This document shows positions 1 through 23,860 of a DNA stretch of 64,000 nucleotides, in pieces. Position 1 is the stretch's first letter. Each line of letters begins with the position of its first letter. A program made the translations under genes and the position numbers. The notes below the pieces were generated by a model. That model searched no databases, was not told the DNA's origin, and saw nothing but the letters and a program-made list of their open reading frames with translations. Source of the DNA: Coriobacterium glomerans PW2 (GTDB taxonomy: Bacteria; Actinomycetota; Coriobacteriia; Coriobacteriales; Coriobacteriaceae). Location: the NCBI RefSeq assembly GCF_000195315.1, contig NC_015389.1:1054001-1118000 (forward strand). Reading direction: 5' to 3'.

Positions 1-1031
1 ACGCTTCGAAAGCCTACGGGGACAAGCAGATCTACGACGGCATCGATCTCACGCTGTACCGAGGCGATCATGTCGTGCTCTCCGGGCCGAACGGCGCGGG
101 CAAGTCGACCCTCATGAAGATGCTCGCCGGCGTCGAGCCGTTGAACGCGGGTTCGCGCTCGCTCGGCCTCCATGTCGGCGTGGCATACTACGCACAGCAT
201 CAGCTCGAGGCGCTCAGCGAGGCGAACACCGTCCTGCAGGAGATCGACGCCGTCGCCCCGGGGTGGACCGTTCCGCAGGAGCGCAGCCTGCTCGGAGCCT
301 TTTTGTTCTCCGGCGACGATGTGGACAAGCGGGTCGGCGTGCTCTCCGGCGGGGAGCGGGCCCGGCTCGCGCTGGCCAAGATGCTCGTCGCGCCCGAGGC
401 TCTGCTGTGCTTGGACGAGCCGACGAACCATCTGGACATCGATTCCATCGACATGCTCGAGCGCGCGCTCACGCGCTTTCCCGGCACGATCGTGCTGATC
501 AGCCATGATGAACATCTGGTGCGCGCCGTCGCCAATCGCGTCGTCGACGTCCGAGACGGCCAGATGAGAGTCATCGACGGCGACTACGACTACTTCCTGT
601 ACAAGCGCGATGATCTCGCGAGGCGTGTGGAACAAGCAGACGGTCGGTCCGAGGCGACCGGCGCGCAATCGCGCGCCGGCACGGTCGGGCGGCCACGCGC
701 GGGCACCTCGAGCCCTGAGGAGCCTGCAGCGGGGAAGCGCACACGCGAGCAGCGGCGGCGTGACGCGCAGGCGCGCGCCGAGCTGAACCGCAGGCTCAAG
801 CAGCGCCGGACTCGCTTGAGCACCGTCGATGCGGATCTCGCTCGCAAGCGCGCGCGCTACGATGAGCTTATGGCGATCATGTCCTCAGAGGGGCTCTACG
901 AGGATCAGGTCGCATTCAACCGGGCGCTGGCTGAGTACGGTGCGCTCAAAAAGGAGATTTCCGTTCTCGAGGAGGAGTGGCTGGATCTTTCGGCTCAACT
1001 GGAGGAGGAGACATCACATGGGCGTTCGTAG
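1..1031 (+). CDS. ABC-F family ATPase, C-terminal part (5' end outside window)
   Basis: The frame is open from base 3, so the gene starts before the window and only its second half is seen. It holds one complete ABC nucleotide-binding domain: Walker A GPNGAGKS, signature LSGGERARLALAKML, Walker B LCLDEPTNHLD and a switch histidine in LISHDE. There are no membrane segments. After the ABC domain comes a charged linker rich in Arg, Ala and Glu and a predicted coiled coil, as in the C-terminal domain of Uup/EttA-like ABC-F proteins, which act on ribosomes. DEPTNHLD is typical of ABC-F. The exact subgroup (EttA, Uup, resistance type) cannot be set without the N-terminal half. Confidence 0.9.
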   Translation, partial: ASKAYGDKQIYDGIDLTLYRGDHVVLSGPNGAGKSTLMKMLAGVEPLNAGSRSLGLHVGVAYYAQHQLEALSEANTVLQEIDAVAPGWTVPQERSLLGAFLFSGDDVDKRVGVLSGGERARLALAKMLVAPEALLCLDEPTNHLDIDSIDMLERALTRFPGTIVLISHDEHLVRAVANRVVDVRDGQMRVIDGDYDYFLYKRDDLARRVEQADGRSEATGAQSRAGTVGRPRAGTSSPEEPAAGKRTREQRRRDAQARAELNRRLKQRRTRLSTVDADLARKRARYDELMAIMSSEGLYEDQVAFNRALAEYGALKKEISVLEEEWLDLSAQLEEETSHGRS

Positions 1032-1314
1032 AGCAGTTGGCGTGGCCCTGGGCATACTGGCACTCGCGCTCCGGCTGTGCTCGATCGCGTTGTGCTGCTT
1101 CGTCGTCATCCTGTGCTTCTCAGGTTTGCCCTCAAGGCTCAACATCGTCGGGCTCATCGTGGACATCTCCCGCGTCCTGCCCCCCTCCATCGCTGGCTAT
1201 GGCGTGATATCGAGTCCGTTCGGCGGGGTGTTCCGCTTCGATTTCTCCCTCATGGCCGTCGCGCTGTTCATACTCGATTTCATCTTCTCGCGCATCGCGC
1301 GCATGCTCCGCTAG
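1018..1314 (+). CDS. Small two-segment membrane protein, unknown function
   Basis: This 98-residue frame begins with ATG inside the last 14 bases of the ABC-F gene, with GGAGGAGG just upstream, so translation is likely coupled. It has a hydrophobic segment near residues 7-35, a short polar loop, and a second hydrophobic segment near residues 72-95 ending in basic residues. I do not recognise a family. Its place between the ABC-F gene and a membrane protease suggests one transcript. The good ribosome site and hydrophobic pattern favour a real gene. Confidence 0.6.
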   Translation: MGVRRAVGVALGILALALRLCSIALCCFVVILCFSGLPSRLNIVGLIVDISRVLPPSIAGYGVISSPFGGVFRFDFSLMAVALFILDFIFSRIARMLR

Positions 1315-1327
1315 AGAGGCGGTCCTC

Positions 1328-2014
1328 ATGTATAGGTTGTCGTTGTATTCGATCATCATCAGCGTGCTCGCATTGATCATCGGCATCGTCGTTCATGAGA
1401 GCGCGCATGCGCTCGCCGCGTATCTTCTTGGAGACGCGACCGCTCGCTCGCGCGGCCGCGTCTCGCTCAATCCTCTGAATCATATCGATCCGTTCGGCAC
1501 CGTTTTGCTGCCGCTGCTCATGATAGCGATGGGTGGACCGGTGTTCGCGTTCGCCAAGCCCGTACCGGTGCAGGTCAACAATCTCAGGCATCCCAAGCGC
1601 GACGAGCTTTTGGTCTCGCTCGCCGGTCCCGCCTCGAACATCGTGATCGCCTGCCTGTTCACGCTGCTGCTGAGATTGGTTCTCCATTCGGTCGCGATCT
1701 CTTCTGCGACTGATTTTATGGTCAGATCGATCATGGATCTGTCCGTCGAGGCGATTCAGATCAACCTCGCGCTCGCATTTTTCAATCTCATTCCGATCCC
1801 GCCGCTTGACGGGTCCGCCATCCTGGTCGTGTTCCTCAAGGGCCAGGCCCTGCGCACCTACTATGAGATCCAGCGCTATGCCATGTTCGCGTTGCTGATC
1901 ATGCTGTTCGTCTTGCCTCAGTTCTTCCGTATCGATCTGATCTCGCTGTATTTCAGCGTGACCGTGTACCCTGTATTTCATTTTCTGCTGTCATTCGCGA
2001 TGGGATTGGTCTGA
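1328..2014 (+). CDS. Site-2-protease-like M50 metallopeptidase (Rip2/YwhC type)
   Basis: A 228-residue multi-pass membrane protein. The zinc motif HESAH lies at residues 23-27 in the first membrane segment, followed by NPLNHIDP near residue 48. The third ligand motif NLIPIPPLDGS covers about 143-153, with Asp151 the likely metal ligand. These are the hallmarks of the small M50 branch without a PDZ domain. Members cleave substrates within membranes, but the substrate is unknown here. It starts 13 bases after the preceding gene and is followed by a 65-base gap and then scpA, a neighbourhood often seen in Gram-positive bacteria. Confidence 0.88.
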   Translation: MYRLSLYSIIISVLALIIGIVVHESAHALAAYLLGDATARSRGRVSLNPLNHIDPFGTVLLPLLMIAMGGPVFAFAKPVPVQVNNLRHPKRDELLVSLAGPASNIVIACLFTLLLRLVLHSVAISSATDFMVRSIMDLSVEAIQINLALAFFNLIPIPPLDGSAILVVFLKGQALRTYYEIQRYAMFALLIMLFVLPQFFRIDLISLYFSVTVYPVFHFLLSFAMGLV

Positions 2015-2079
2015 GCTGCATTGGGACCAACGTGTCGGGTGTGCCCGGGATATTCTTGCGCCGTGGGAGGTGAGCTTCG

Positions 2080-2880
2080 ATGTCGTATCGCGTGACGACC
2101 AAGTTCTATTCGGGTCCGTTCGATCTGCTGCTGCAGCTCGTCTCGCGGCAGAAGGTTGATATCGGGGCCATCTCGATCTCAGAGGTCGCCGAGCAGTTTC
2201 TTTCCGAAGTGCACCGCTTGGACGCGATGAACCTCGATATAGCCAGCGACTTCGTGCTCGTCGCCGCTACGCTTCTGGACATCAAGGCGGCCTCTCTGGT
2301 GCCCGATGACGCGGTGCGTCTTCGCGAGGATGCGATCGAGGAGGATGATGAGCTCTCCGACCTTGACGGCGACGCTCTGCGCGAGGTGCTCATACAGAGG
2401 CTCATCGCGTACAAGCAGTTCAGAAGCGCCTCATGGGCCCTTGGATCGCGCATGGAGGCCGAGGGACGCATGCATCCCAGGGTCGCCGGCCCGGACCCCG
2501 AGTTCTTGAATCTCATGCCCGATTACTTCTCCGGGATCACGTTGCGTGGTCTTGCTGTCATCTGCGCCGACCTCGCCGCGCGACGTGATACGTTCTTGCT
2601 GGAGGCCGAACACGTGGCGCCGCGTCGCGTGCCACTGGAGCTCACGGTCGCCTCTGTCGATCGAGTGACGACGGCCCGGCCCCGTATCATGTTCTCCGAG
2701 CTTCTCGACGCCGAATCGAGTGCCGAGCAGATCGTCTCAACGTTTCTGGCGATACTGGAGCTCGCGAAGCGCGGATCGATCACGCTGGCGCAGGCATCGA
2801 GCTTCGGCGACATTCGCATCGACCGCGTCCGTGGCGCCGCGGCCTATAAGCCGGGCGACGCGTTGTCCGCAGACGAGTAG
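2080..2880 (+). CDS. scpA: Segregation and condensation protein A
   Basis: A 266-residue ScpA kleisin: the N-terminus carries the typical FxGPFDLLLQLVSRQKVDI block that binds the SMC neck, followed by an acidic middle and a C-terminal winged-helix part that binds the SMC head. ScpA joins SMC and ScpB in the condensin complex that organises the chromosome. The start is an ATG preceded by an excellent ribosome site (GGGAGGTGAG). scpB follows after 9 bases, so the two are an operon. No smc gene is in the window. Confidence 0.95.
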   Translation: MSYRVTTKFYSGPFDLLLQLVSRQKVDIGAISISEVAEQFLSEVHRLDAMNLDIASDFVLVAATLLDIKAASLVPDDAVRLREDAIEEDDELSDLDGDALREVLIQRLIAYKQFRSASWALGSRMEAEGRMHPRVAGPDPEFLNLMPDYFSGITLRGLAVICADLAARRDTFLLEAEHVAPRRVPLELTVASVDRVTTARPRIMFSELLDAESSAEQIVSTFLAILELAKRGSITLAQASSFGDIRIDRVRGAAAYKPGDALSADE

Positions 2881-2889
2881 GAGGCTTGC

Positions 2890-3642
2890 GTGAACACCTT
2901 GGATACCCTGGAATCCGATTCACCGAAAGGCGCTCTCGAGGCGATGCTTCTGGTCTCGAGCGATCCGGTGAGCGCCTCTGCGCTCGCGCGCGTGATCCGC
3001 ATCGCACCCGGCGAGGCGGCGTCGCTTCTGGCGGAACTCAAGGTCGAGTATGAAGAGGCCAATCGGGGTTTCCAGCTGCGCGAGGTCGCAGGAGGCTGGC
3101 GTCTGTTCACGCACCCCGCGTATCACGAGCAGGTCGAGTCGTTCGTGATGTCCTGGGACACGCAGAAGCTGTCGCAAGCGGCTCTGGAGACGCTCTCGGT
3201 GATCGCGTATCACCAGCCCGCGACTCGGGAGGCGGTGAGAGGGATTCGCGGTGTGAACTCCGACGGGGTCATCTCGTCGCTCGTCGACAAAGGGCTCATC
3301 CGCGAGGTGGGTCGCGACGCGGAGCGCGGCCAGGCGATCCTGTACGGCACAACGAATGTCTTTCTCGAGAAATTCGGCCTGCGCTCCCTGCGCGATCTTC
3401 CGGATCTCGAGCAATTCGCCCCCGATGAGGAATCGAAGCGATTTATCCGCGAGCGCCTCTCAGGTGGCGCGATCTCATCGACCCTCGAGCAGACCGAGGA
3501 GGACCTGGAGGAGGAGCGCGAGCTTCTCGACACCTCCGAGGGAGAGGATCTGCGCGCCCAATCGGCCCTCGACGCGCTGTCCGGTGCGGACGGTACAGCC
3601 GTGCGCGGCGGCGAGACCGCGGGTGATCGCCTTGACGCCTGA
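2890..3642 (+). CDS. scpB: Segregation and condensation protein B
   Basis: A 250-residue ScpB with two winged-helix domains. The family block LSQAALETLSVIAYHQPATR, about residues 96-115, and the following RGVNSDGVISSLVDKGLI segment are clear. ScpB dimers bind the ScpA kleisin and control the SMC ATPase. Translation starts at GTG, nine bases after the scpA stop, with a GGAGG site overlapping the scpA stop codon. The last 60 residues are acidic and of low complexity, longer than in many ScpB proteins. Confidence 0.95.
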   Translation: MNTLDTLESDSPKGALEAMLLVSSDPVSASALARVIRIAPGEAASLLAELKVEYEEANRGFQLREVAGGWRLFTHPAYHEQVESFVMSWDTQKLSQAALETLSVIAYHQPATREAVRGIRGVNSDGVISSLVDKGLIREVGRDAERGQAILYGTTNVFLEKFGLRSLRDLPDLEQFAPDEESKRFIRERLSGGAISSTLEQTEEDLEEERELLDTSEGEDLRAQSALDALSGADGTAVRGGETAGDRLDA

Positions 3643-3694
3643 TCTCGCGGCCGCCTCGATGGAGCCGGGGGACCGGCGGGAGCGTCCGCGGACG

Positions 3695-4468
3695 ATGCGC
3701 CTGCAGCGCTTTCTCGCGCGTGCGGGCGTCGCGAGCCGGCGCGGCTCCGAGCACCTGATGAGCGCCGGCAGGGTGCGCGTGAACGGTCTGGTCGCAAGCG
3801 AGCTGGGAACGAAGGTCGATGTCGGAGCCGATCGCGTCGAGGTGGACGGCATCGAAGTCGTCTTCGGTGCACCTCCGGTCTATATCGTGCTCAACAAACC
3901 GGCGGGCTATCTCACCACGATGAGCGATCCCGCGGGCAGGCCCTGTGTCGCCGAGCTGGTTCCCATCCGGCGCTTTCCGGGGCTCTTCCCCGTCGGGAGG
4001 CTCGACAAGGACACGACAGGCGTGTTGCTGTTCACGACGGATGGCGATCTCGCGCAGAATCTGCTGCATCCCTCGAAGCACGTCGCGAAGACCTACCTCG
4101 CACGCGTGGAGGGGACCCCGGATTCGGCCGACCTTGATGTGCTGCGCGCCGGGATCGAACTCGATGACGGCCCATGCCTGCCTGCTCGGTGCCGTCTTGT
4201 CGAGCGACGCGCCTCGGGGGGATCATCCCTTGTTGAGCTGATCATTCGCGAGGGCCGAAAGAATCAGGTCAAGCGCATGCTTGCCGCTGTGGGCCATCCT
4301 GTTCAGCGCCTTGTGCGCACGAGCTTCGGCGGGGTTGCCGCCAGCGATCTCGCAGAAGGGGAGTGGAGAGAGCTCACGTCCTGCGAGCTCGCTCTTCTCC
4401 GACCTGAATCGCCAGCTGATCCGCCCGCGCACCTCGGGCGGCCCGGCGCGTCTCGAAAGGAATCATGA
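3695..4468 (+). CDS. RsuA/RluB/RluE/RluF-family 16S/23S rRNA pseudouridine synthase
   Basis: About 257 residues. An N-terminal S4 RNA-binding domain (RLQRFLARAGVASRR to VRVNG) is followed by a pseudouridine synthase domain with the catalytic motif GRLDKDTTGVLL, Asp near residue 104. It makes pseudouridine in ribosomal RNA; RluB-like action on 23S rRNA is usual for this position beside scpAB. I chose the ATG at 3695 because it lies right before the S4 domain and has a GGGAG site upstream. In-frame starts at 3623 (GTG) and 3659 (ATG) are possible but have poorer sites. cmk starts one base after its stop codon. Confidence 0.9.
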   Translation: MRLQRFLARAGVASRRGSEHLMSAGRVRVNGLVASELGTKVDVGADRVEVDGIEVVFGAPPVYIVLNKPAGYLTTMSDPAGRPCVAELVPIRRFPGLFPVGRLDKDTTGVLLFTTDGDLAQNLLHPSKHVAKTYLARVEGTPDSADLDVLRAGIELDDGPCLPARCRLVERRASGGSSLVELIIREGRKNQVKRMLAAVGHPVQRLVRTSFGGVAASDLAEGEWRELTSCELALLRPESPADPPAHLGRPGASRKES

Positions 4469-4469
4469 T

Positions 4470-5147
4470 ATGATCGTCGCCATAGACGGACCCGCTGGAT
4501 CGGGCAAATCGACCATCGCGCGCGAGCTCGCCAGTCGTCTCGGTTTCGCTCAGCTCGACACCGGGGCGCTGTATCGCGCCGTCACGAATGCCGCGCTGAG
4601 CCGAGGTGTCGATATCGACGACGAGCGCGCGATCGCGCAACTGGCTGCACGGCTCTCCATGCGCTTCACCTCGCGCGCCGGGGAGGAGACCCACCTCGAG
4701 GTGGACGGTCGCGACGTCACGCGCGAGATTCGCACGGCGGCGGTGGACCGCGCCGTCTCGAAGGTCTCTTCGAACCCGGGGGTGCGCACCGCGCTGCTCG
4801 ATGCTCAGCGCCAAGCAGCGATCGGGCGCGATATCGTGGCGGAGGGCCGCGACATCGGAACCGTGGTGTTTCCAGATGCCGAGGTGAAGGTGTTTTTGAC
4901 GGCGGACCCTGTGGAGCGCGCCCGTCGGCGCGCGCTCCAGCGTCATGGGACATCGCTGGACAGCCGACATCTCGACGCCGAGTCGCGCAGGATCCTTGCT
5001 GACATAAAGCGCAGAGACACCCTGGATGCCAATCGGCGGTGCGCTCCGCTGTCCTGCGCGGCGGACGCCGTGCGCATCGATTCCACCGCCTGCGGCATCG
5101 ATGAGGTGCTCGCTCGCATCACATCTCTCATCGATGACAGGAGATAG
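4470..5147 (+). CDS. cmk: Cytidylate kinase
   Basis: A 225-residue P-loop kinase that phosphorylates CMP and dCMP. The P-loop GPAGSGKS is at residues 7-14, followed by LDTGALYRAVT, which is characteristic of Cmk. The EGRDIGTVVFPDAEVK block and an Arg-rich lid follow. The start ATG is one base after the stop of the pseudouridine synthase gene, with GAAAGG upstream. The fit and length are normal for the short bacterial form. Confidence 0.95.
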   Translation: MIVAIDGPAGSGKSTIARELASRLGFAQLDTGALYRAVTNAALSRGVDIDDERAIAQLAARLSMRFTSRAGEETHLEVDGRDVTREIRTAAVDRAVSKVSSNPGVRTALLDAQRQAAIGRDIVAEGRDIGTVVFPDAEVKVFLTADPVERARRRALQRHGTSLDSRHLDAESRRILADIKRRDTLDANRRCAPLSCAADAVRIDSTACGIDEVLARITSLIDDRR

Positions 5148-5154
5148 ATAGCTC

Positions 5155-5880
5155 ATGGGCGCGGCCAAAAGCGCGGATCGCTACTTCGAGTGCGGCATGC
5201 GAGCGTTCCCCCTGCCGATTCGGATCCTCAGCGACCTGGTCTTCGGTATCCTCTACATCTTCTCAAAGCTCTTGTGGCGTTGGCGGGTGGAGAACGCCGA
5301 TGAGCTCGTTTCATCCGACGCGACCGGATCGGTCGTCATCTGCAACCACACGTCCATGGCAGAGGTCGTCGTCATATGCGCGCACGTCTGGCGCAGCGGT
5401 CGGCGCGTCCGCCCGCTGTACAAATCCGAATGGGACGCGGTGGGGATCGTGCGGTGGCTCTTTTCACGGGTTGGAGGAGGCATTCCCATCGAGCGCGGAA
5501 CCGCGGATCTCAAAGCGCTTCGTCGCGCGCAGCGCGCGCTGGCGCGAGGCGAGGACGTGCTGATCTTCCCGGAGGGCACGCGCATCCGAGACGAGGGGCG
5601 GCCCGTCAGGATCCACGGGGGATTCGCCCTGCTCGCACAGATGGCGAAGGCCGAGATCGCCCCTATGGCGGTCTGCGGCTTTCGTGATATAACCCCTGCG
5701 GGCAAACACGTGCCCCGTCCGAGAAAGACCTGGGTCCGTTGCGGCTCACGGATCGATCCCGCGGCGGCTCCAGCGAATCTCCGGCGTCGCGAACGGCTCG
5801 CGTGGGTGGAGGACGAGTCGGTCTCGCGCATGTACGCCGTCCGAGATGAGCTGCGCCGCGAGCATCCCGGCAGGAGCTGA
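5155..5880 (+). CDS. plsC: 1-acyl-sn-glycerol-3-phosphate acyltransferase (PlsC), unusual HX4E motif
   Basis: A 241-residue lysophosphatidate acyltransferase homologue that adds the second acyl chain in phospholipid synthesis at the membrane. A hydrophobic segment lies near residues 24-42. The family blocks are VICNHTSMAE (about 61-70), GGIPIERG (block II) and FPEGTR (block III, 138-143). Block I normally reads NHxSxxD with an HX4D catalytic pair; here the acidic residue is Glu70 (codon GAG), giving HX4E. The gene sits between cmk and ispH, an order known from other Gram-positive genomes, and the stop is two bases before ispH. Confidence 0.88.
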   Translation: MGAAKSADRYFECGMRAFPLPIRILSDLVFGILYIFSKLLWRWRVENADELVSSDATGSVVICNHTSMAEVVVICAHVWRSGRRVRPLYKSEWDAVGIVRWLFSRVGGGIPIERGTADLKALRRAQRALARGEDVLIFPEGTRIRDEGRPVRIHGGFALLAQMAKAEIAPMAVCGFRDITPAGKHVPRPRKTWVRCGSRIDPAAAPANLRRRERLAWVEDESVSRMYAVRDELRREHPGRS

Positions 5881-10746: not shown

Positions 10747-11934
10747 GTGACAACGGGTGCGAACATGCCGCCAGTCAACCTTGATTACGCCGCGTCGACT
10801 CCGATGCGACCGGAGGCGATAGCCGCCCAGAGCGCCTATGACGCCAGCGATATCGCCGGGGCGAATCCCAACGCCTTGCATACGCTCGGACGGCGTGCGG
10901 CCGCCCGGCTCGAGCGCGCTCGAGCCGATATCGCAAGCTGCCTCGGGGCGCGCGTGCGCCCCTCGGAGCTCGTTCTCACGGCGGGTGGCACCGAGGCCAA
11001 TCAGCTTGCGCTTCTCGGCATCGCCGAAGGCGTCCGCGCGCGCGATCGAAAGCGCACCCGCGTGATCGTCTCAGGCATCGAGCATGATTCGATTCTGGAT
11101 AATCTCGGGCTCCTTCATGAAGCCGGGTTCGAGACCGATATCGTCGCCCCGGCCCGATCGGGGCGCGTCGAGCCGGATGGATTGGCGCGGCTTCTGGATG
11201 ATCGGGTCGCGCTCGCATCGATCATGCTCGCGAACAACGAGACCGGCGTCATCCAGCCCGTTCGCGAGCTGGCGGAGCTGACGCATCGCGTCGGGGCACG
11301 GTTCCACACCGATGCGATTCAGGGTTTCCTGCATATTCCCATCGATGTGGACGAGCTCGGATGCGACGCGTTGTCCCTGGCGGGCCACAAGGTGGGCGGG
11401 CCGGTCGCCACGGGCGGTCTCTACCTGCGGGGACGCACTCCGCTGCGGCCCCGCCTCCTGGGCGGGGGCCAGGAGGCGGGCAGGCGCGCCGGCACGCAGG
11501 ATGTGCGCAGCCACGTCGCGCTCGCAGCGGTCTGTCGCGCGCTCGCTCCGCGCATCGTCGAGCACGCCTCTCGGGTTCGCGCTCTCTCCGATAAGGTGTA
11601 CCGGCAGCTCGCAAGCTGCCCGCGCATACGATCTTCCGTTCCGGACGTCGAGCGCGCGCAGCGACTGCCCGGGATCGTCTCCGTGCTCGTCCAGGGTATT
11701 GAGTCCGAGGATCTGATCTTGCGCTTGGACGCCGCGGGCTTCGAGGTCTCGGCGGGCTCGGCATGCAGCGCGGGCGCTGTCGGATCCAGCCACGTGCTGC
11801 GGGCGATGGGGATCGATGAGCAGGCTGCGTCCGGATCCCTGCGCATCTCCTTCGATGACCGCGCGCGCGAGGCCGATCTCGATAGGTTCTGCCGCGCGCT
11901 GTGCGAGCTTGCGGCCGCAGGTCCGCGATCATGA
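10747..11934 (+). CDS. Cysteine desulfurase (NifS/IscS-like)
   Basis: A 395-residue PLP enzyme of the class V aminotransferase fold that takes sulfur from cysteine. It begins with NLDYAASTPM, has GGTEANQLAL, the PLP lysine in SLAGHKVGG (about Lys215) and the catalytic loop cysteine in SAGSACSAG (about Cys341). The SGSAC-type loop is group I (IscS/NifS). GTG at 10747 is the called start, but ATG at 10765 just before the conserved block is an alternative. No IscU or ThiI gene is next to it, so the sulfur acceptor (Fe-S cluster or tRNA) is not shown. Confidence 0.92.
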   Translation: MTTGANMPPVNLDYAASTPMRPEAIAAQSAYDASDIAGANPNALHTLGRRAAARLERARADIASCLGARVRPSELVLTAGGTEANQLALLGIAEGVRARDRKRTRVIVSGIEHDSILDNLGLLHEAGFETDIVAPARSGRVEPDGLARLLDDRVALASIMLANNETGVIQPVRELAELTHRVGARFHTDAIQGFLHIPIDVDELGCDALSLAGHKVGGPVATGGLYLRGRTPLRPRLLGGGQEAGRRAGTQDVRSHVALAAVCRALAPRIVEHASRVRALSDKVYRQLASCPRIRSSVPDVERAQRLPGIVSVLVQGIESEDLILRLDAAGFEVSAGSACSAGAVGSSHVLRAMGIDEQAASGSLRISFDDRAREADLDRFCRALCELAAAGPRS

Positions 11935-12737
11935 GGGTCTCAGAGCTGGAGCGCTCGCTCTTCGAGTGCTATCCGAGGTCGGTCGCAGAGCCATGGGACC
12001 ACGTGGGTCTCTCGGTCGGCAGACCGGACGAGGAACTCGGCGTCGCGTGCGTGGCGCTCGACGCGTCGCCGCGAAACGTCGGTCGGGCGCATGAGCTGGG
12101 TGCCGGCGTCCTGGTGACCCATCACCCGGTCTACATATCCGCTCCGGCTTCATTCGTGCCCGAGTGCGCTGCCGCGCCACAAGGGGCCGCCGCCGTCTTC
12201 ACTGCTGCGGAACTGGGCGTCAGCGTCATCTCGATGCACACGAACCTCGACCGCTCGCCCGATGCGCGCGCGATCCTCCCCGAGCTTTTGGGCGTTGGCG
12301 CGCAGACATCTCTCGAATACCCCTCCCAACCTGATCGAGCTGGTATCGGCGCGATCGCGAAAACGGCTCCCGAGCGACTCGGAGACCTCGCTCGGCGCGT
12401 CGCGCGCGTGTTTTCGACGGAGCCGCGCGTCTGGGGGGACCCCGCCTGTGAGATCGCCAAGCTCGCCTTCGTTCCGGGCGCGCTCGGCGATCTTGGTGGA
12501 GCCGCGATCGATGTCGGCGCCGATGTCCTGATCACCGGGGAAGCGGGCTATCATGTGTGTCAGGATCTGGCGGCTTGCGGGTGCTCGGTCATCCTGCTCG
12601 GTCACGATCGCTCTGAGGAGCCCTTCGTGGACGTGCTGGCCCGCCGCCTCATCCGCATCGGTCTTTCCGGCGATGCGGTCAAGATCATACGGTCCAGCGC
12701 CCAGTGGTGGACCATATCAAAAGGAGACCTCCTATGA
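11931..12737 (+). CDS. Nif3-like dinuclear metal-centre protein (DUF34)
   Basis: A 268-residue member of the Nif3/YbgI family. Family blocks are EPWDHVGLSVG near the start, VTHHPVYI with paired metal-binding histidines, the SMHTNLDRS segment, and the C-terminal ITGEAGYHVCQDLAACG followed by LLGHDRSEEPF. The last parts supply the remaining ligands. Members often form hexamers and hold two metal ions. Biochemical function is uncertain; a GTP cyclohydrolase-like or metal-insertion role has been suggested for some. It overlaps the desulfurase stop by four bases and the next gene by four bases. Confidence 0.9.
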   Translation: MRVSELERSLFECYPRSVAEPWDHVGLSVGRPDEELGVACVALDASPRNVGRAHELGAGVLVTHHPVYISAPASFVPECAAAPQGAAAVFTAAELGVSVISMHTNLDRSPDARAILPELLGVGAQTSLEYPSQPDRAGIGAIAKTAPERLGDLARRVARVFSTEPRVWGDPACEIAKLAFVPGALGDLGGAAIDVGADVLITGEAGYHVCQDLAACGCSVILLGHDRSEEPFVDVLARRLIRIGLSGDAVKIIRSSAQWWTISKGDLL

Positions 12738-13459
12738 GCGTCGGTCAGTCGTTGCTGCAGATTCAAGAAATCGATCTCTCGCTCGCCCGTGAGCGGGCTC
12801 TTCTGGCAGAGATGCCAGAATTCAAGGATCTCGCGCGCAAGCGCAAGGCATATCTCAAATTGAAAAACGATGCGATGAAGCTGTTCGCGCAGCGCAAGGA
12901 TATCGACATAGAACTCGCGGATCTCGATGTCGATGAGAAGACCACCTCTGCTGCGGTCGAGGCGGCTCAGCGAAACGGCGTCGACCCCTCGAACTATCAT
13001 GAGGTTCAGAATCTGGAGCTGGAGCTGACGAATCTGGCGAAGAGGCTCGACAAGATCAAGCACGCCCGTGCCGAGAACCTCGAGGCGCGCGCCTCGGCTG
13101 TCGAGAAGGAGCGCGCTCTCAAGGATTATATCGCTCGCTTCGAGGCTTCCATCATCGCCGATACGCGCCAGACGCGCGAACGCGCCGCGCAGATTCAGGC
13201 TTCGATCGATGAGGAGCAGGCCGAGCGCGAGCGCATCGCAGCGAGCGTGCCTTCCGAGCTGCTCGATGAGTACGCTGAGGCCATGAAGCGCTTCGACGGG
13301 CTGGCTATCGAGCATCTTGATGGCGTGACGCCCTCGATATGTCGGACGACCCTTCAGCCATCCTCCTTGGCCGACATTCGTCTTCAAGGCGAGATCACCC
13401 GCTGTCCGTACTGCCATCGCATGCTCGTCCACGACAGAGGAGGCGCGCAAGATGCGTGA
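12734..13459 (+). CDS. Coiled-coil protein with degenerate C-terminal C4 zinc ribbon (DUF164 type)
   Basis: A 241-residue protein: a long antiparallel coiled coil over about residues 5-180 with many Glu, Lys, Arg and Ala heptads, then a small C-terminal ribbon. In this family the ribbon normally has two CxxC pairs. Here the second pair is complete (Cys224, Cys227 in RCPYCHRML), but the first has only Cys203 (SICRTT), so one ligand is missing. The Nif3-DUF164 pair is common in bacteria, and the two genes overlap by four bases here (ATGA). The role is unknown; RNA or DNA binding has been proposed for relatives. Confidence 0.85.
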   Translation: MSVGQSLLQIQEIDLSLARERALLAEMPEFKDLARKRKAYLKLKNDAMKLFAQRKDIDIELADLDVDEKTTSAAVEAAQRNGVDPSNYHEVQNLELELTNLAKRLDKIKHARAENLEARASAVEKERALKDYIARFEASIIADTRQTRERAAQIQASIDEEQAERERIAASVPSELLDEYAEAMKRFDGLAIEHLDGVTPSICRTTLQPSSLADIRLQGEITRCPYCHRMLVHDRGGAQDA

Positions 13460-14759
13460 GCGCGACGCATCCGTGCCCGCGGGCGCTGATATCGCAGTGA
13501 TGTCCGGCAGCGCGCAGGGACCGCATGCGCCCGCGATTCTGCTCTGCGTGACGGGCTGCATCGCAGCCTACAAGTCCTGCGAGATCGCTCGCCTGCTGCA
13601 GAAGCGCGGCGTGGATGTCACGGTCGCTATGAGCGAGCACGCGACGAGACTCGTCGACCCGCTGACCTTTCGGGCGCTCACTCGCAGACCCGTCGCCGTG
13701 GGGCTGTTCGATGATCCGTCCGACCCGATCAAGCACATCTCGCTTGCGCAGGCGGCCGATGTCGTGCTCGTCGCACCCGCGACGGCGAACATCATCGCGA
13801 AGATGGCGCACGGCATCGCTGACGATCTCATCTCGACGACGCTGCTCGCGACCGCCTTGCCGATCCTGATCGCGCCCGCCATGAACGTGAACATGTGGCG
13901 CGCTGCGGCCACGCAGGCAAACATCGAGGTGCTGCGCGCGCGCGGTGCTCAAATCATCTCTCCGGATGCGGGCTATCTGGCCTGCGGCGACATCGGGGAG
14001 GGCCGCCTCGCCGATCCGTGCGACATCGTCGAGCGCGTGATGGCCGCACTTGGTTCGAAAGACGCGACGGAGCGAGCACCGAGATCTCGCGGGAAGGGGA
14101 CGGACGGCTCGGTATCCGATTCGCTCGCCGGTGAGCGGATCGTCATCACGGCGGGGCCGACCTATGAGCCGATCGATCCGGTGCGCTTCATCGGCAACCG
14201 CTCGTCGGGGAAGATGGGCGTCGAGCTCGCGCGCGCCGCATATGAGCTGGGTGCGGAGGTGACCCTCGTGCTCGGACCCACGACGATCGCGCCTCCTGAG
14301 GGCGTCTGCGTCGAGCGCGTCGAGACGGCAGAGCAGATGCTCAGGTGCGCGCGATCAGCTTTCGCGGACGCCACGGCCCTCATCTGCGCCGCAGCGGTCT
14401 CGGATTACGCTGCGGCCGAGCCCGCCGCGCACAAGCTCAAGAAAGGGACCGAGTCGCTCGAGTCGCTGCGCCTCGTGCGAACACCCGATATCTTGGCGCA
14501 GCTCAGCGCCGAGAAGGGAGAGCGCCGCGTGATCGGATTCGCGGCGGAGACCGAGCGCGTCGTCGACAATGCTCGCGAGAAGCTCCAACGGAAGGGATGC
14601 GATGCTATCGTTGCCAACGACGTCGCGCTCGCCGGATCGGGGTTTAATCAGGACATGGATCGCGCTTGGTGGGTCGGCCGCGCAGGTGTCTGCGATCTCG
14701 GTTTCATAGAAAAACGCGATCTTGCATTTGAGATCCTGCGGCGCGCTTATCAATTATGA
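13452..14759 (+). CDS. coaBC: Bifunctional phosphopantothenoylcysteine decarboxylase / phosphopantothenate-cysteine ligase
   Basis: A 435-residue CoA biosynthesis enzyme. The N-terminal flavoprotein half (CoaC) has VTGCIAAYKSCEIARLL, VAPATANIIAKMAHGIADDL and the PAMNVNMW substrate clamp, and ends in LACGDIGEGRLAD. The C-terminal half (CoaB) has ITAGPTYEPIDPVRFIGNRS, SGKMG, the AAAVSDY block and KLKKG. Both activities are thus expected. It overlaps the previous gene by eight bases. The called ATG gives a short non-conserved lead; ATG at 13500 is also in frame. This is the last gene of the core row before the tRNA. Confidence 0.94.
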   Translation: MRERDASVPAGADIAVMSGSAQGPHAPAILLCVTGCIAAYKSCEIARLLQKRGVDVTVAMSEHATRLVDPLTFRALTRRPVAVGLFDDPSDPIKHISLAQAADVVLVAPATANIIAKMAHGIADDLISTTLLATALPILIAPAMNVNMWRAAATQANIEVLRARGAQIISPDAGYLACGDIGEGRLADPCDIVERVMAALGSKDATERAPRSRGKGTDGSVSDSLAGERIVITAGPTYEPIDPVRFIGNRSSGKMGVELARAAYELGAEVTLVLGPTTIAPPEGVCVERVETAEQMLRCARSAFADATALICAAAVSDYAAAEPAAHKLKKGTESLESLRLVRTPDILAQLSAEKGERRVIGFAAETERVVDNAREKLQRKGCDAIVANDVALAGSGFNQDMDRAWWVGRAGVCDLGFIEKRDLAFEILRRAYQL

Positions 14760-14837
14760 GATATGGGTCATTTCAGCTTGCAAGTTGAGTCGGAGTTGAG
14801 TAAAGTATTCGTGCTGTCGCGTGCGGCGGCGATGTTT

Positions 14838-14914
<77 letters not shown>

Positions 14915-14924
14915 CGAAACACGA

Positions 14925-14957
14925 GGTCAGAGCGGGTGTCCGCTCTGGCCTTTTTCT
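14925..14957 (+). terminator. Rho-independent terminator after tRNA-Pro
   Basis: Eleven-base-pair stem (GGTCAGAGCGG with CCGCTCTGGCC, one G-T pair) around the loop GTGT, then TTTTTCTT. It starts about ten bases after the tRNA CCA end and should end the tRNA transcript. Confidence 0.9.
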
Positions 14958-14990
14958 TGAGAGAGTCATCGTGCAACCGAGTGTACAACC

Positions 14991-15023
14991 GGATTGCGAG
15001 CGGATTGCGAGCGGATTGCGAGC
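14991..15023 (+). repeat. Three perfect tandem copies of an 11-base unit
   Basis: The unit GGATTGCGAGC occurs three times head to tail, with a looser fourth copy (CCGCTGCGAGA) behind. It sits shortly downstream of the tRNA terminator in sequence without a recognised gene. Its role is unknown; it may be simple slippage or a protein-binding iteron-like array. Confidence 0.75.
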
Positions 15024-15507
15024 CCGCTGCGAGATCGCTGCAAGAAGGGCGCTCATAGGCCGACAGGGATGGATCGCCGTCCCCGCCTCGTTCGGCCGTC
15101 GGATTGTTTTTCAGCGCATGATTTCCGATCTTTTACTCTACATCTCTAGTTTGAACTTGAGAGCTTGGTGAATCGACAACGGCCTTGGTCTGAGGGACGC
15201 GTCGAATTGTTTCGACAAGTCAGAAGTGACCCGTCCGAGACCGGACGCGGTGCGCATTCGAAGCCGGTGCCGCCAAAGAGCGAGCAAAAAGCCGCCACGC
15301 AAGGCGCGATCGTCGGAATCGGTTGCGGAGATTTTGCATGTGCTTCGTTGAAGCCCGCGCGGTTCTTTCGAACACGCGTGGTATCGATGGACCTCAACAA
15401 GGTTGTTGCTGATCAACGGTGAGGGAAGACCTCGGAATGGCGCAGCTCAGTTTGCTTGATCTGCGCGAAAGCGATGTGGCAGAAGAATATACTTTTTACT
15501 TTTTAAC
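15024..15507. other. Gene-free stretch downstream of tRNA-Pro
   Basis: About 480 bases without a recognisable gene. Short open frames exist on both strands but none has a ribosome site with family similarity that I can name, and no integrase was found. The G+C content drops sharply after about 15480, where the promoter for the next gene lies. Confidence 0.4.
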
Positions 15508-15538
15508 TTGTATACTTTTACCGAAGTTATGCTATAAT
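15508..15538 (+). promoter_or_regulatory. Candidate sigma-70-type promoter for the 108-residue protein gene
   Basis: A perfect -10 box TATAAT (15533-15538) lies in an A+T-rich patch. A TTGTAT -35 candidate is at 15508-15513, with a rather long 19-base spacer. The patch stands out from its G+C-rich surroundings and is 40 bases upstream of the start codon. Confidence 0.5.
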
Positions 15539-15577
15539 ACTTTTGAAATAACCCGTTACCCGAAGGGAGCTGATCGC

Positions 15578-15904
15578 ATGGAAGATCTGGTGCTCAAACT
15601 TCGATTGAGACAGGACGAGTGTCCGAAACGACCGTATGGGTGGAAGCCGGGAATGGACGAACAGGAGGCGTGGCGCGCCGCCCAAGGCGACTGGAGGGCG
15701 AGCCGGAAGCGCGTGGCGGCCTGCGAGCGCGTCATCGTCCTGAATCCGGATTCCGAGGTCGTGTGCGTCGTCTCGATCTCGAAGGTCCGAAAGATCGCTG
15801 GCTCCGCCAGGATCCGGATCAGCGGATCGGTGCAGAAGCGTAGTCCGTTGCTTGGAAGGACCATGGTCGTGAACTGGTCGCGCAACCCTGTCGCCTACCG
15901 ATGA
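15578..15904 (+). CDS. Small protein of unknown function, paralogue of the next gene
   Basis: A 108-residue protein starting at ATG with GAAGGGAG upstream. It shares a clear pattern with the following gene: a short hydrophobic/basic start, YGWKPGMDEQEAWRAAQGDW, a central VVCVVSIS strand, a basic loop and the ending LGRTMVVNWSRNPVAY. No signal peptide or membrane segment is seen. The GDWR...R and late SRNPVAY elements are faintly like small PUA-type beta-barrel domains found with restriction genes, but this is only a guess. A longer upstream frame extension has no ribosome site. Confidence 0.65.
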   Translation: MEDLVLKLRLRQDECPKRPYGWKPGMDEQEAWRAAQGDWRASRKRVAACERVIVLNPDSEVVCVVSISKVRKIAGSARIRISGSVQKRSPLLGRTMVVNWSRNPVAYR

Positions 15905-16021: not shown

Positions 16022-16375
16022 ATGACGAATATAGTACTCAAGCTCAAACTGAAGGAAGAGGGCTGCCAAGATGCGCAATACGGCTGGCAACCCGGAATGA
16101 ACGAGGAGGAAGCTTGGCGCGCCGCTCAAGGCGACTGGAGAGCGGATCCCACCCGGGTCATGGAATGCGAGAACGCCATCGTGGTGGACCCGAACTCCAA
16201 GATTGTATGCGTCGCGTCCATCTCCGGTGTGAAGAGAGCTGAGGAAGCGCCTAGGATAAAGATCTTGGGTAAGGTGTTGAGCGGCAACCCCTGGGTCGGG
16301 AGAACAATGCGGGTGAACGATTCGAGGAATCCCATCGCATACATTAAAGGACCGATGGACGTCTTTATCCAGTAG
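16022..16375 (+). CDS. Small protein of unknown function, paralogue of the preceding gene
   Basis: A 117-residue protein beginning MTNIVLKLKLKEEG after an AAAAGGAAAAAA-type site. It matches the preceding product through YGWQPGMNEEEAWRAAQGDW, VVDPNSKIVCVASISG, and VGRTMRVNDSRNPIAY, with a short extra C-terminal tail. About half the aligned positions look identical by eye. The tandem copies point to a duplication followed by divergence, and both frames stay open with conserved motifs, so they appear to be under selection. Function not known. Confidence 0.65.
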   Translation: MTNIVLKLKLKEEGCQDAQYGWQPGMNEEEAWRAAQGDWRADPTRVMECENAIVVDPNSKIVCVASISGVKRAEEAPRIKILGKVLSGNPWVGRTMRVNDSRNPIAYIKGPMDVFIQ

Positions 16376-18440: not shown

Positions 18441-20390
18441 CTATTCTCCAAAGTGCGCCTTGATGTCCTGTACCATTTTATCGATTTCGTAGGCGGATAG
18501 ATTAAGGGCGTATTCAAACGGCACCGGCTGAGCCCCGGAGTGGGACGATTGATTCAACATGACTCTCTTCCCCATGAGATAGGCGCGCGTAACCGTGTCG
18601 GGGCCGTGCCAGCTTGAAGGGCCGTCTTTCGGGAAGATGGCCTCGATGCGCGTCCCGAGAGTCTTGGCCTTACCAAAGAGATCAGGTGAGCAGCTTTCGT
18701 TGAGCTGATCTTCGTAAAGCTGTTTCTCGACCCAGACGCGCAGAGCGATCATCAGCAACTCCTTGTCAAGGCAACGGCAGGCAAACGAGCTCTTGTTCAA
18801 GCTATCGGGCTCGAAGGACTCGATAAGCTTGGCAAGATACTCGTTGCAAAGTTTCTCTTTTTCATAGTCAACGGAACACAATGGCGCGTCATAGTGAAAC
18901 ACAGCGTTTAGCCCGGGGACGCTTTCTCGCTCCGCGACCGCCTTGAGATATTTGATCTTGGTGTTGTATGTCTTGCATCCCATCCTTCCAACCTGCTCGA
19001 TCAAAGCGGCCTGACTGAGAGGTCGGGGGGAGTCCTCGCTATCATCGATCGTGATGGGCTGCTTCCTCAGGCCATCGGACCAGCGATCGAGGCTTTCATA
19101 TTTGAAGCAATTCGGATACTGCGAGTAGGCTATGTTTATGCAGTTGCTGTTGTGGGTGAACATGATGACTGTCTTTTTGACCGAGCTGATGATGTCGATG
19201 AGATCGAAGATCACCGCGTATTGATTAGCTGTGTCGAAGCTGGTGATCGGGTCGTCAAGCACCAGCGTGTCGTCATCGCTCGCGACGAAGTCGTTGATCT
19301 TTACCAGGATGAGGAGCAGGTCGATCTCGCCCGTGCTGTACGTGTCCACTTTGCGCGGAAGCGTGACGGTAAGTGCCTTGTCGACATCATCGAACTTTAT
19401 GGCCTCCTCCTTGACGTCAAACTTGACCGTGAGCAAGCTGACGAGCTCGTCTTTACGTTTCAAGATGTTGCAGTAGAACCGATCTCGCATCGCCTCGAAC
19501 TTCGCAATCCGCTTGCTTAGTTTCCTGAACTCAGTGGAATTCGCTTCGATGCGCTTCGAGTTGTCTTTGCTGCCACCGCAGAGACAGAGGCTGAAGACCG
19601 CGTCCTCGGATGTCAACTTGGCGTCTGACGCCACCTTGAGCAGCGTATCGTAGCCCTTCGCCATGGTGGCGGCATCCTCTCCCGGATGAGATCGCTGATA
19701 ATCCTGTAGCGTCCGAGCTTCAATCTGGCATGCTTGTCTGTGCTTTTCCCTGATGATGCTCGCAACGGATCGCCCGTGGGATGCACCGCAGACCGGACAG
19801 GTCCTCTCGCCTTCGTCGATCCATCGCTCTATGCTCTCGACGGCATCGGCGATGATCTCATTGCGAAACGGTTCGATTTCCTCTTTGAGCGATTTGGCCT
19901 TTTGAAGGTCGCGCCAGTGGGAGACAAAGAACTGCAAGTCCGCGCCTTTGAGCGCGTCTATAAGACCGTCGGCGTCCGCTTTGCTGAATTGCTCAAGGTC
20001 TCCGGCCAAGTCTGCTTTTGCTTTGGGGTGCGAGGGTACCGCGATCCCGATTGTCTTTGCATTGGTTAAGCCCATAGATTTAAGATTGTCCACGAATGCG
20101 CAGCCGGTAAGAAGCTGCTCGGTCTGATTCTTGAGTTCGCTTATGCTCTGCACCCGCGCGCTGATGGTTAGTTTATTTTTCGCGGATTTCGCGAAGTTGG
20201 CGCGGTAATCGCTGCATTCCACAAAGGAGACCTTTTTCGGCCCCTTCTCCTTCAGAGCCCGGTATATCGAGCTTTTGCCAACACCGTTGGGAGCCCATGT
20301 CATTTGCGATTCGCGAAGATCGATCTCCAGCCCCCTCGCGCCGAGATGCTTCATTGAGACGGGGATTTTTAGCTCTTGGGCACTATTCAT
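18441..20390 (-). CDS. PrrC/RloC-like AAA ATPase, possible RNA-cleaving defence protein
   Basis: A 649-residue ABC/SMC-type ATPase. The Walker A reads WAPNGVGKSS (about 33-41), the signature YSTGEIDLLL (351-360), Walker B LVLDDPITSFD (376-386) and the switch histidine is in FTHNSN (412). A CPVCG pair (Cys198, Cys201) sits mid-insert where RloC has its zinc hook, but long coiled coils are lacking. The C-terminal domain has R551-V-W-V-E555 and later LNQSSHSG (His617), an R-X3-E-Xn-H pattern like the anticodon-nuclease triad of PrrC/RloC. ATG 20390 is chosen because GGGAG precedes it; a start at 20414 is possible. It is an orphan gene on the opposite strand to its neighbours, in the decayed island. 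Confidence 0.75.
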   Translation of the reverse strand: MNSAQELKIPVSMKHLGARGLEIDLRESQMTWAPNGVGKSSIYRALKEKGPKKVSFVECSDYRANFAKSAKNKLTISARVQSISELKNQTEQLLTGCAFVDNLKSMGLTNAKTIGIAVPSHPKAKADLAGDLEQFSKADADGLIDALKGADLQFFVSHWRDLQKAKSLKEEIEPFRNEIIADAVESIERWIDEGERTCPVCGASHGRSVASIIREKHRQACQIEARTLQDYQRSHPGEDAATMAKGYDTLLKVASDAKLTSEDAVFSLCLCGGSKDNSKRIEANSTEFRKLSKRIAKFEAMRDRFYCNILKRKDELVSLLTVKFDVKEEAIKFDDVDKALTVTLPRKVDTYSTGEIDLLLILVKINDFVASDDDTLVLDDPITSFDTANQYAVIFDLIDIISSVKKTVIMFTHNSNCINIAYSQYPNCFKYESLDRWSDGLRKQPITIDDSEDSPRPLSQAALIEQVGRMGCKTYNTKIKYLKAVAERESVPGLNAVFHYDAPLCSVDYEKEKLCNEYLAKLIESFEPDSLNKSSFACRCLDKELLMIALRVWVEKQLYEDQLNESCSPDLFGKAKTLGTRIEAIFPKDGPSSWHGPDTVTRAYLMGKRVMLNQSSHSGAQPVPFEYALNLSAYEIDKMVQDIKAHFGE

Positions 20391-20871
20391 GGTTCTGGCT
20401 CCCATCTTGCTCATGACAATGCATGGCTTCTATCCTTTACTATAACGCGGAATTCGTCTCTTGGACCGTGTCGAGCGGATCAGAGATCCTCGGCATTGCC
20501 CCTCTCTGCCCTCGCGCCTCGCCGGCAGTACCCCTGTCGGCCCCTACAAGAATCAGGGGGAGGCTGTGGCGAACCATGGCTCGAAGGTGGTCTGGATGGA
20601 TGGTCGACGCCTCCTTCGCGCCCTGCCGTTTAGTCGCGATGCCGCGGCTCCGGGCATCTGGGTCGCGGAACCCCATCCCGCGAGGTAGATTCACATGGGA
20701 TCTCCCGTGCAGGAGGGGCGAAGAGCCCGCGCGCTCCCTTCGCGCAGTTCCCTTGACGCGGAGTCCCCTGCGGCTCGCATCGCATACAAGCGATGGCGGG
20801 CGCAGGCACCCGCCATCGCCCTGAGAAAGATCGACAGGGACGAGAAGGAAGCCCGGAAAGAGAGGAAAGCG

Positions 20872-21523
20872 ATGAGTGGGATGGTGGCGACCGGAAACGA
20901 GACCGTGGCATCGGCTGTCATAAGAGGAGTGGAGGCGCGGCCTGTGAAAATAGAGTGTTGCATCGAGCGTGGAATGGCGCAGTTCGTTTTCAACGGGGTG
21001 AGCGACGCCGCCGCGCTCGAGCTGCGCCCGCGGGTCCGTTGTGCGATCCGGGGCGCGGGCTACGCCGTGCCGCACGCGTCGGTGACGATTACGGTGTCGT
21101 CATTCGATCAAGACAACGATTCGATCCGCCTCGCCGCCTCTGACCGCCACATTGAGCTGGCGATCGCGGCGGCGGTGCTAGCAGCTTCCGGGCAGGTGCC
21201 CGCCGGGGCAGTGGACGGCCGGCTGCTTGTCGGCTCGCTGGAGCCTGACGGCGGCGCGTCGCTAAACCGCAGAGCGGCGCCCTACGCGGAGCTCGCGCGC
21301 GAGAGGGGTCTTGAGCTGCTCGCAGGGCCTGCATCCGGAGCGGGTTCGCTGCCGGGGACCCCTGCGCTGCATAGGGCCGCTCAGCGCGCTCAGACGAGGT
21401 CGCGAGGCGGTATACATTCTGCGACACCACCTCGAGCCTATCGAGCGCGATGCCGATCTGGCCGAGTGGCCGAGGCTGGGACGCGCCAAGATCGCACTTG
21501 CTCTTAGGCCGCGCTGGGTCTAG
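20872..21523 (+). pseudogene. ComM/YifB (Mg chelatase-like) N-terminal domain, frameshifted
   Basis: Starting at ATG 20872 with AGAGGAAAG upstream, the product matches the N-terminal S5-like domain of ComM/YifB: GMAQFVFNGVSDAAALELRPRVRCAI, then AIAAAVLAASGQVP, LLVGSLEPDG and AELARERGLELL. After about 21330 the matching frame ends and the expected continuation (ALRRGREAVYILRHH) is in the next frame up to 21523, so a frameshift is present. The AAA+ domain that normally follows is absent. Some mobile elements of Gram-positive bacteria carry only this N-terminal piece, so it may be a broken element gene and not a broken chromosomal comM. Confidence 0.6.
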
Positions 21524-22420: not shown

Positions 22421-22660
22421 CCGGACCGCTGTCTCACGCACGGCAGACGCCTCGAGCGCACCGATGGCACCTTCACGCATGCGGTCCGACGAATCGCCAC
22501 TACCTCGTTCTTTTCAATCTCCGTGATTATTCTGCTCAAGTATTATTGAAAATCAACACGCCACAGACGAAGCGGAGGCCACTTTGTACCAATAGGATTC
22601 CTTTGGTTGTTGCGATGAGAGGGCCGGCACGTTACCATGATGCGAACGAGAGGGGATGCC

Positions 22661-23860
22661 ATGAGCGACGAATCAGCACCGGCCGCGCTATCCGGTTCAA
22701 CTGACGGGAAATCAAAGGAATTGAAGTCCGCTCAGAAGTTGCGAGAGTTCTGGGGCGACAAAAACTTCCTTTTCGGAAAGACCTCCACGACGGAATGGCG
22801 CGAAATGGCCATCGAGAACCGTGGCCTGCTCGCGGCGATGCACCCTGATGACATCCGCCGTATCGAGGAGCAGCTCAAAGGGAAGGCCTCCGAATGGTTT
22901 AAGAGAAAGGGAAACGAGGGCTTCCTCTACTACATCAACGGATTTGAGGGAGATGTCTCCCACGCGCGGCTGCTCCCGATCGACAATCCGACTGTGATTC
23001 CGCTGCAAATACTTCACATTCGATGGGTGAGCGGTTGCACCGCGTTTCACCCGAAAGCCATGCTCAGGCCCATACCCCCTCATCCCTTCATGGGGTCATT
23101 TCACAAAGGAACGCGCATCGTGGTGCTGGGGTACAACCCCCAGTTCGCGCAGCGGCCGTCCGACGCTGAGGAGGCCAGACTGTTCGATAAGGATCAGGAC
23201 GAAGTTCTCAGATCATTCGCTGAAGCCAAGCCGTTCCTACCGTGGCTGAGCAGCTCTGAAACATGGAGATGGCACCGTGAGGAGCTGTACGCGTCGTTGT
23301 GCAGGTTCGTCTGTGCCTCAGTCGGGACAGATAACTGGAACGCTCTGTCCGACTGGCTTGGCGTTCGGCTTGCGCAGATCGAGGTGTCCGGCTATCCGAC
23401 TCACAATATCAGACGCTGCCATTGCGAGAAGTCTCTGCGAAAGCTGCTGAACGGCATCGATCGTGACCAGATCAGCGAGGCCCTTCTACCCTCTCAGGAG
23501 ATGGCGCTGGCTCTGATCCGGGATCTCATCTGCTACACCAGTTGCGTCTTTATCGTTCAGCCCGGACCGTTCAAGTTCTGGGTCAAGCATATTGAAAAAA
23601 ACTTTGGCGAATGCGTGGCGGTTCATTTTCGTGATAGGTCGTTCATCAACACGGATCGGCGGAATGCACCTTGGAAGATCAGATGGGACAGCATTGCCCG
23701 GTGGGCGGACTGCACGGACGATGAAGGTAAGCTCATCTGGAGCCGCATCACCAAGGAGAAACGAAAACACACGACCAGTACGGCACAGGTGAAGTTCAAC
23801 GAGGCGATTGGCGATGAGCTCAGATCAGCGCTCGCCGCGGCCGCATCGAGCCGACGCTAA
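22661..23860 (+). CDS. Unknown 399-residue protein of the island
   Basis: Starts at ATG 22661 with GAGAGGGG upstream (a longer frame from 22637 lacks a site). The product is soluble, without signal peptide or membrane segments. Noticeable parts are a WGDKNFLFGKTSTTEWREMAI-like N-terminus, GTRIVVLGYNPQFAQRP near residue 150, a Trp-rich PFLPWLSSSETWRWHRE block, and VIVQPG-like FIVQPGPFKFW near residue 295. The GYNPQF segment after a hydrophobic strand is slightly like the motif that opens uracil-DNA glycosylase folds, but no second motif confirms this. No family assigned. Gene order gives no partner. Confidence 0.7.
   Translation: MSDESAPAALSGSTDGKSKELKSAQKLREFWGDKNFLFGKTSTTEWREMAIENRGLLAAMHPDDIRRIEEQLKGKASEWFKRKGNEGFLYYINGFEGDVSHARLLPIDNPTVIPLQILHIRWVSGCTAFHPKAMLRPIPPHPFMGSFHKGTRIVVLGYNPQFAQRPSDAEEARLFDKDQDEVLRSFAEAKPFLPWLSSSETWRWHREELYASLCRFVCASVGTDNWNALSDWLGVRLAQIEVSGYPTHNIRRCHCEKSLRKLLNGIDRDQISEALLPSQEMALALIRDLICYTSCVFIVQPGPFKFWVKHIEKNFGECVAVHFRDRSFINTDRRNAPWKIRWDSIARWADCTDDEGKLIWSRITKEKRKHTTSTAQVKFNEAIGDELRSALAAAASSRR

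Follow-up and report, generated by a model that had tools for sequence, protein, structure and literature searches.

The window, a stretch of 64,000 nucleotides from Coriobacterium glomerans PW2, harbours on its minus strand an open reading frame at positions 18441..20390, which runs through 649 codons without a stop. This frame, together with an upstream GGGAG motif and two homologues in other genomes, defines a gene for a compact ABC-ATPase of 649 aa with an RloC-like C-terminal motif. The proposed start codon is the ATG at position 20390. It is preceded at a distance of 8 nt by the ribosome-binding-like GGGAG (20399-20403) and, judged from the sequence, is better placed relative to this motif than the in-frame ATG at position 20414. 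The gene has a GC content of 54%, versus 66% for the upstream coaBC.

The translated frame contains, all encoded on the minus strand, the motifs expected of an ABC-ATPase. The Walker A motif WAPNGVGKSS (residues 32-41, 20268..20297) is invariant at all but one position in the three homologues, the window protein included. The ABC signature YSTGE (residues 351-355, 19326..19340) is profile-aligned with the LSxGE of proteins of the Pfam family AAA_13, and the Walker B motif LVLDDP (residues 376-381, 19248..19265), in which D379, D380 and P381 are invariant, is aligned with the Walker B of the same proteins. The switch motif FTHN with His413 (19149..19160) is found in all three homologues and corresponds to the THN of AAA_13 proteins. 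Thus, the translation reproduced the reading frame and the four head motifs as they had been recognised in an earlier, sequence-only reading of this DNA.

Genomic neighbourhood

The coaBC gene is followed by a tRNA-Pro(GGG) gene (14838-14914). This pair is kept in related genomes, while the genes downstream of it are different in the window genome: in five relatives checked, the window genes located downstream of tRNA-Pro were not found in the approximately 9 kb downstream of coaBC. No integrase was identified at the site, nor was a second, directly repeated copy of the tRNA-Pro end, which could mark an island border. The ATPase gene is likely to be part of a genomic island without defined borders. 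PADLOC matched none of the neighbouring ORFs searched from 15.4 to 27 kb, and there is no restriction-modification-like gene among the listed ORFs nearby, in agreement with the earlier statement that type I restriction neighbours are missing.

Three further observations were made in this region. Two small proteins encoded side by side (15419-15904 and 16022-16375), which belong to no known family, look like a tandem duplication, with a 146-nt repeat at 72% identity. Beside the ATPase gene, at 20695-21507, there is an apparently truncated ChlI-domain fragment, which resembles the N-terminus of YifB/ComM. The ORF at 22637-23860, comprising 407 aa, matched nothing in Pfam, PADLOC, NCBIfam or plasmid searches and gave one very weak PHROG match.

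A small protein family in Coriobacteriia

Among 397 genomes of the order, the ATPase is present in three: the window genome, Collinsella sp. BA40 and an uncultured Eggerthellaceae metagenome-assembled genome (MAG), the two homologues having 31% and 38-40% identity to the window protein. The same two homologues and no more were recovered when 84,980 species genomes were scanned with strict peptide patterns, and 396 genomes drawn across the phylum added one weak match, which is restricted to the head. Viral contigs scanned with the protein, with the three-row alignment and with the C-terminal alignment yielded no relatives. In plasmids and phages, tblastn found no close relative, the searches returning either nothing or matches to the ABC head alone. 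Given the strictness of the peptide patterns in the large scan, the sequences found so far suggest a rare family restricted to Coriobacteriia. A frameshift near base 1316 of the MAG contig interrupts the Eggerthellaceae gene; it may have arisen in assembly, and it was read through solely for the purpose of searching.

The ATPase head and a putative zinc hook

The sequence CPVC (residues 198-201, 19788..19799, minus strand) is a candidate zinc hook. The three homologues share it as CP[VI]C, and its two cysteines, like the core residues of the head, are invariant. Its place is about halfway from Walker A to the signature, where a hook would be expected, with 159 and 150 residues on its two sides in the window protein and 158/142 and 160/148 in the other two family members. 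For comparison, nine AAA_13 proteins were fetched. All nine contain a CxxC at the corresponding place, and a global profile alignment pairs the CPVC of the window family with the CPFC of AAA_13 proteins. Therefore, the CxxC is a general AAA_13 feature and not specific to RloC. In the AAA_13 proteins the arms comprise 213-269 and 236-249 residues, so by sequence the CxxC should cap a clearly shorter arm in the window family. Two earlier claims were borne out here, namely a CPVCG site in the position of a zinc hook, which has symmetric arms and may bind zinc, and the lack of the long coiled coil of RloC (approximately 142-160 residues per side versus 213-269 in AAA_13 relatives).

The sequence-only reading had also proposed an AAA_13 profile search. 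A profile built from the three family members matched eight AAA_13 proteins with 98.8% probability (E 8e-17), the match including the signature, Walker B and the switch. With single sequences, the Collinsella homologue scored 41.4 bits against Pfam AAA_13 (PF13166), above the cut-off of 36, and the window protein 16.2 bits, below it. PADLOC reported matches to PDC-S06, LmuB and PrrC, which cover mainly the ABC head. In a Foldseek search with the full-length model (mean pLDDT 64, pTM 0.51), SMC and Rad50 heads were at the top of the list, with a best E of 4e-5 and low TM-scores. We regard the assignment of head and hook as secure; an RloC/PrrC-like architecture is supported.

A putative nuclease motif in the C-terminal domain

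The C-terminal domain (residues 455-649, 18444..19028, minus strand) is a candidate HEPN-type RNase. Its AlphaFold2 model (mean pLDDT 71, pTM 0.74) is helical save for two short strands. The residues R551 and E555 (R551-x3-E555, 18726..18740) are separated by a single turn of a long helix (536-565), and H617, which belongs to the LNQSSH sequence (residues 612-617, 18540..18557), falls in a loop whose pLDDT is below 50. The numbering of Arg551, Glu555 and His617 in the sequence-only reading was correct. Their conservation among orthologues, which it had put forward as a check, was confirmed: all three residues are invariant in the three homologues at 31-40% identity, as are W553, K556, N613, A620, Q621, P624 and F625.

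In RloC, the nuclease motif is Arg-X3-Glu-X36-52-His, often with a Ser preceding the His, and each of the three residues is needed for activity (PMC2610378). The nuclease domains of PrrC and RloC were assigned to HEPN (PMC3710099). Of the HEPN motif Rx4-6H, the window protein has N613-x3-H617; a Leu stands at position 612, and the Arg that is invariant, R551, is the one of a PrrC/RloC-type triad. The succession of R..[VIL]E and [NH]..SH is present in eight of the nine AAA_13 proteins compared, and the pattern R..[VIL]E-x(25,70)-[NH]..[SA]H occurs exactly once, at aligned positions, in each of the three family members. It arose in 0.08-0.2% of shuffles of the same C-termini, a result which supports the nuclease motif but is not a proof, since the pattern with Ser or Ala before the His was fixed after viewing both groups. 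Thus, the R, E and H of the anticodon-nuclease-like triad proposed earlier are invariant, and they have the N-x2-[S/A]-H context shared with AAA_13 proteins. The window protein has the RloC order of residues and a Ser before the His, with a distance between Glu and His of 61 residues, beyond the 36-52 of RloC. It is 56 and 51 in the homologues and 28-44 in the other AAA_13 proteins. In addition, the stretch between the switch His and the Arg comprises 138 residues in the window protein, compared to approximately 67-88 in other AAA_13 proteins.

Fold searches with the C-terminal model gave no significant match; two HEPN HepT chains were among 23 fold matches, with an E of about 7, which is noise. 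Profile comparisons of the C-terminal domain, based on shallow alignments, revealed nothing significant either (E 0.09), although in this non-significant alignment H617 fell unforced onto the His of the AAA_13 proteins. A sequence search for a solved PrrC or RloC structure found none. The nuclease call consequently depends on motif and conservation, given the lack of a significant match for the domain and the unconfident loop around H617.

These results leave room for a different view of the C-terminus, in which the protein is a defence ATPase of the AAA_13/PDC-S06/LmuB type, the C-terminal part is regulatory or binds a partner, and the RxxxE...H arrangement is coincidental or vestigial. The missing fold and profile matches and the insertions, which are longer than in other AAA_13 proteins, would fit this view. 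However, the R, E, N and H are invariant in proteins that share only 31-40% identity, and the AAA_13 pattern would rarely arise by chance, as the shuffles indicate. We therefore consider it unlikely, and according to the motif the protein is likely to have an RloC/PrrC-type RNase tail. The choice of tRNA as the target is a tentative guess by analogy to the family.

Type II-A retrons beside the homologues

Both homologues adjoin a type II-A retron. In Collinsella sp. BA40, the ATPase gene, a 318-bp gap, a gene for an NDT-wHTH protein and a retron reverse transcriptase (RT) gene are located on one strand, and PADLOC recognised NDT_II-A (1e-32) and RT_II-A (2e-50). The locus (10849-15037) comprises, directly downstream of the ATPase, an ncRNA candidate (12899-13070), the NDT-wHTH gene (13129-14109) and the RT gene (14096-15037). 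The 318-bp gap folds with a z of -5.8 relative to shuffled sequences; its predicted fold is built around a 34-nt hairpin, which 14-nt outer repeats close, and is laid out like a retron ncRNA. The retron locus of the Eggerthellaceae MAG (849-5290) is convergent with the frameshifted ATPase gene: RT_II-A is 149 bp apart from it and is followed by NDT_II-A (PADLOC), and a similar candidate ncRNA fold (z -5.7) lies upstream of the NDT gene. Rfam searches of the retron loci found no family. The NDT frame of the MAG contains approximately 90 homologous codons upstream of its first ATG, GTG or TTG, and thus its start or its sequence is uncertain.

In the order, NDT_II-A was detected in seven of the 397 genomes and the ATPase in three, two of which have both. 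By our own arithmetic, the hypergeometric probability of two shared genomes is approximately 8e-4, adjacency not counted. The link between ATPase and retron is suggestive, as it holds for two of two homologues, but unproven.

The genome search revealed neither an RT nor the NDT_II-A effector in the window genome. A retron remnant in the window was considered and rejected, as tblastn detected no RT or NDT and the sequences beside the gene gave folding z values of -1.9 and +0.4. The earlier description of the gene as an orphan, possibly acting solo, is thus true of the window genome, but not of the homologues.

Conceivably, type II-A retrons use the ATPase as a partner or as a second effector, in the order ATPase-ncRNA-NDT-RT, and keep it silent through the retron complex, in which case the window copy would have lost its retron or would use another partner. 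The adjacency at both loci, the statistics of co-occurrence and the two stable ncRNA candidate folds speak for this possibility. On the other hand, five genomes of the order have the type II-A retron without the ATPase, the orientation of the ATPase differs between the two loci, and the retron proteins linked to it do not resemble each other more than they resemble unlinked ones. Moreover, the window genome is devoid of both RT and NDT, and defence genes cluster in any case. Altogether we regard a retron partnership as rather unlikely. A little more doubtful is the specific scenario of a previously undescribed arrangement of Coriobacteriia, in which a compact RloC-like ATPase-RNase would be the second effector on a type II-A retron and the window copy a free-standing descendant. 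The repeated position of the relatives beside complete type II-A retrons offers a way to ask whether a retron can guard an RNase in addition to its NDT effector.

Proposed mode of action

The reading we favour, with moderate confidence, is that of a compact defence ATPase of the AAA_13 and RloC/PrrC class with a HEPN-type RNase tail. According to this proposal, a Rad50/SMC-like ABC ATPase head would carry a short coiled-coil arm capped by the CPxC zinc hook, and the helical C-terminal domain would provide a HEPN-type, metal-independent RNase site with R551, E555, N613 and H617. On the model of RloC, the RNase is probably kept inactive by the ATPase and the hook. A shift in nucleotide state, brought about by damaged DNA or some other signal of an infecting phage, would then set it free to cleave RNA, plausibly in the anticodon loop of a tRNA, so that translation is halted and the infection aborted. 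By analogy to known systems we infer that the protein is an RNase, that it acts on tRNA, that DNA damage triggers it and that it serves in defence. The last of these is quite likely in view of the family and the neighbours, and the action of the ATPase is probably abortive.

Several of the above results weigh against this reading: the C-terminal domain alone is without a significant profile or fold match, H617 is in a low-confidence loop, the Glu-His gap of 51-61 residues is at or beyond the range of RloC, the stretch between switch and Arg is long, and just three members are known. That the protein is instead a housekeeping SMC/Rad50-like DNA-repair protein without a role in defence is very improbable, because, despite its best fold matches to Rad50 and SMC heads, only three of the 397 genomes of the order contain it, it is located in variable regions and next to retrons, and it has an extra C-terminal domain which is absent from Rad50 and SbcC (PMC2610378). 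If tRNA is indeed cut, the protein would be a small, self-regulated nuclease of the anticodon type with a hook much shorter than that of RloC, and could be useful for learning how much arm such an enzyme needs to stay silent.

Comparison with known systems

With AAA_13 proteins in general, the window protein shares the CPxC and the RxxxE...SH, which occur in these relatives; it differs in scoring below the Pfam cut-off and represents a separate compact branch. PDC-S06 is the best-scoring PADLOC family for its head. In a Klebsiella quasipneumoniae plasmid (634-3711), a TrlF-family ATPase and a nuclease annotated as a HEPN family member lie next to an AAA_13 ATPase.

Retron Eco7 (type I-A, PtuA/PtuB), the effectors of which deplete a tRNA (PMC11555353), is similar in that an ATPase adjoins a retron. 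However, PtuA works with an HNH partner, while the retron neighbouring the homologues described here is of type II-A and has its own NDT effector.

PrrC, the tRNA-Lys anticodon nuclease, has the same ABC head motifs and the same Arg-x3-Glu...His order. In contrast to PrrC, the window protein has an arm with a CxxC and no adjoining type I restriction genes, and the gap between Glu and His in E. coli PrrC (31 residues) is shorter than in the window family.

RloC corresponds to the window protein in its ABC head, in a CxxC in the middle of the insert, in the C-terminal Arg-x3-Glu...(Ser)His and in a locus without type I restriction-modification. The window family differs in its arms, which are approximately 55-110 residues shorter per side than those of the other AAA_13 proteins examined, in its Glu-His gap and in the extra residues between the head and the Arg. 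As its arm length departs from the RloC feature and its spacing lies outside the RloC range, we do not file the protein as an RloC, although in its working it would be RloC-like.
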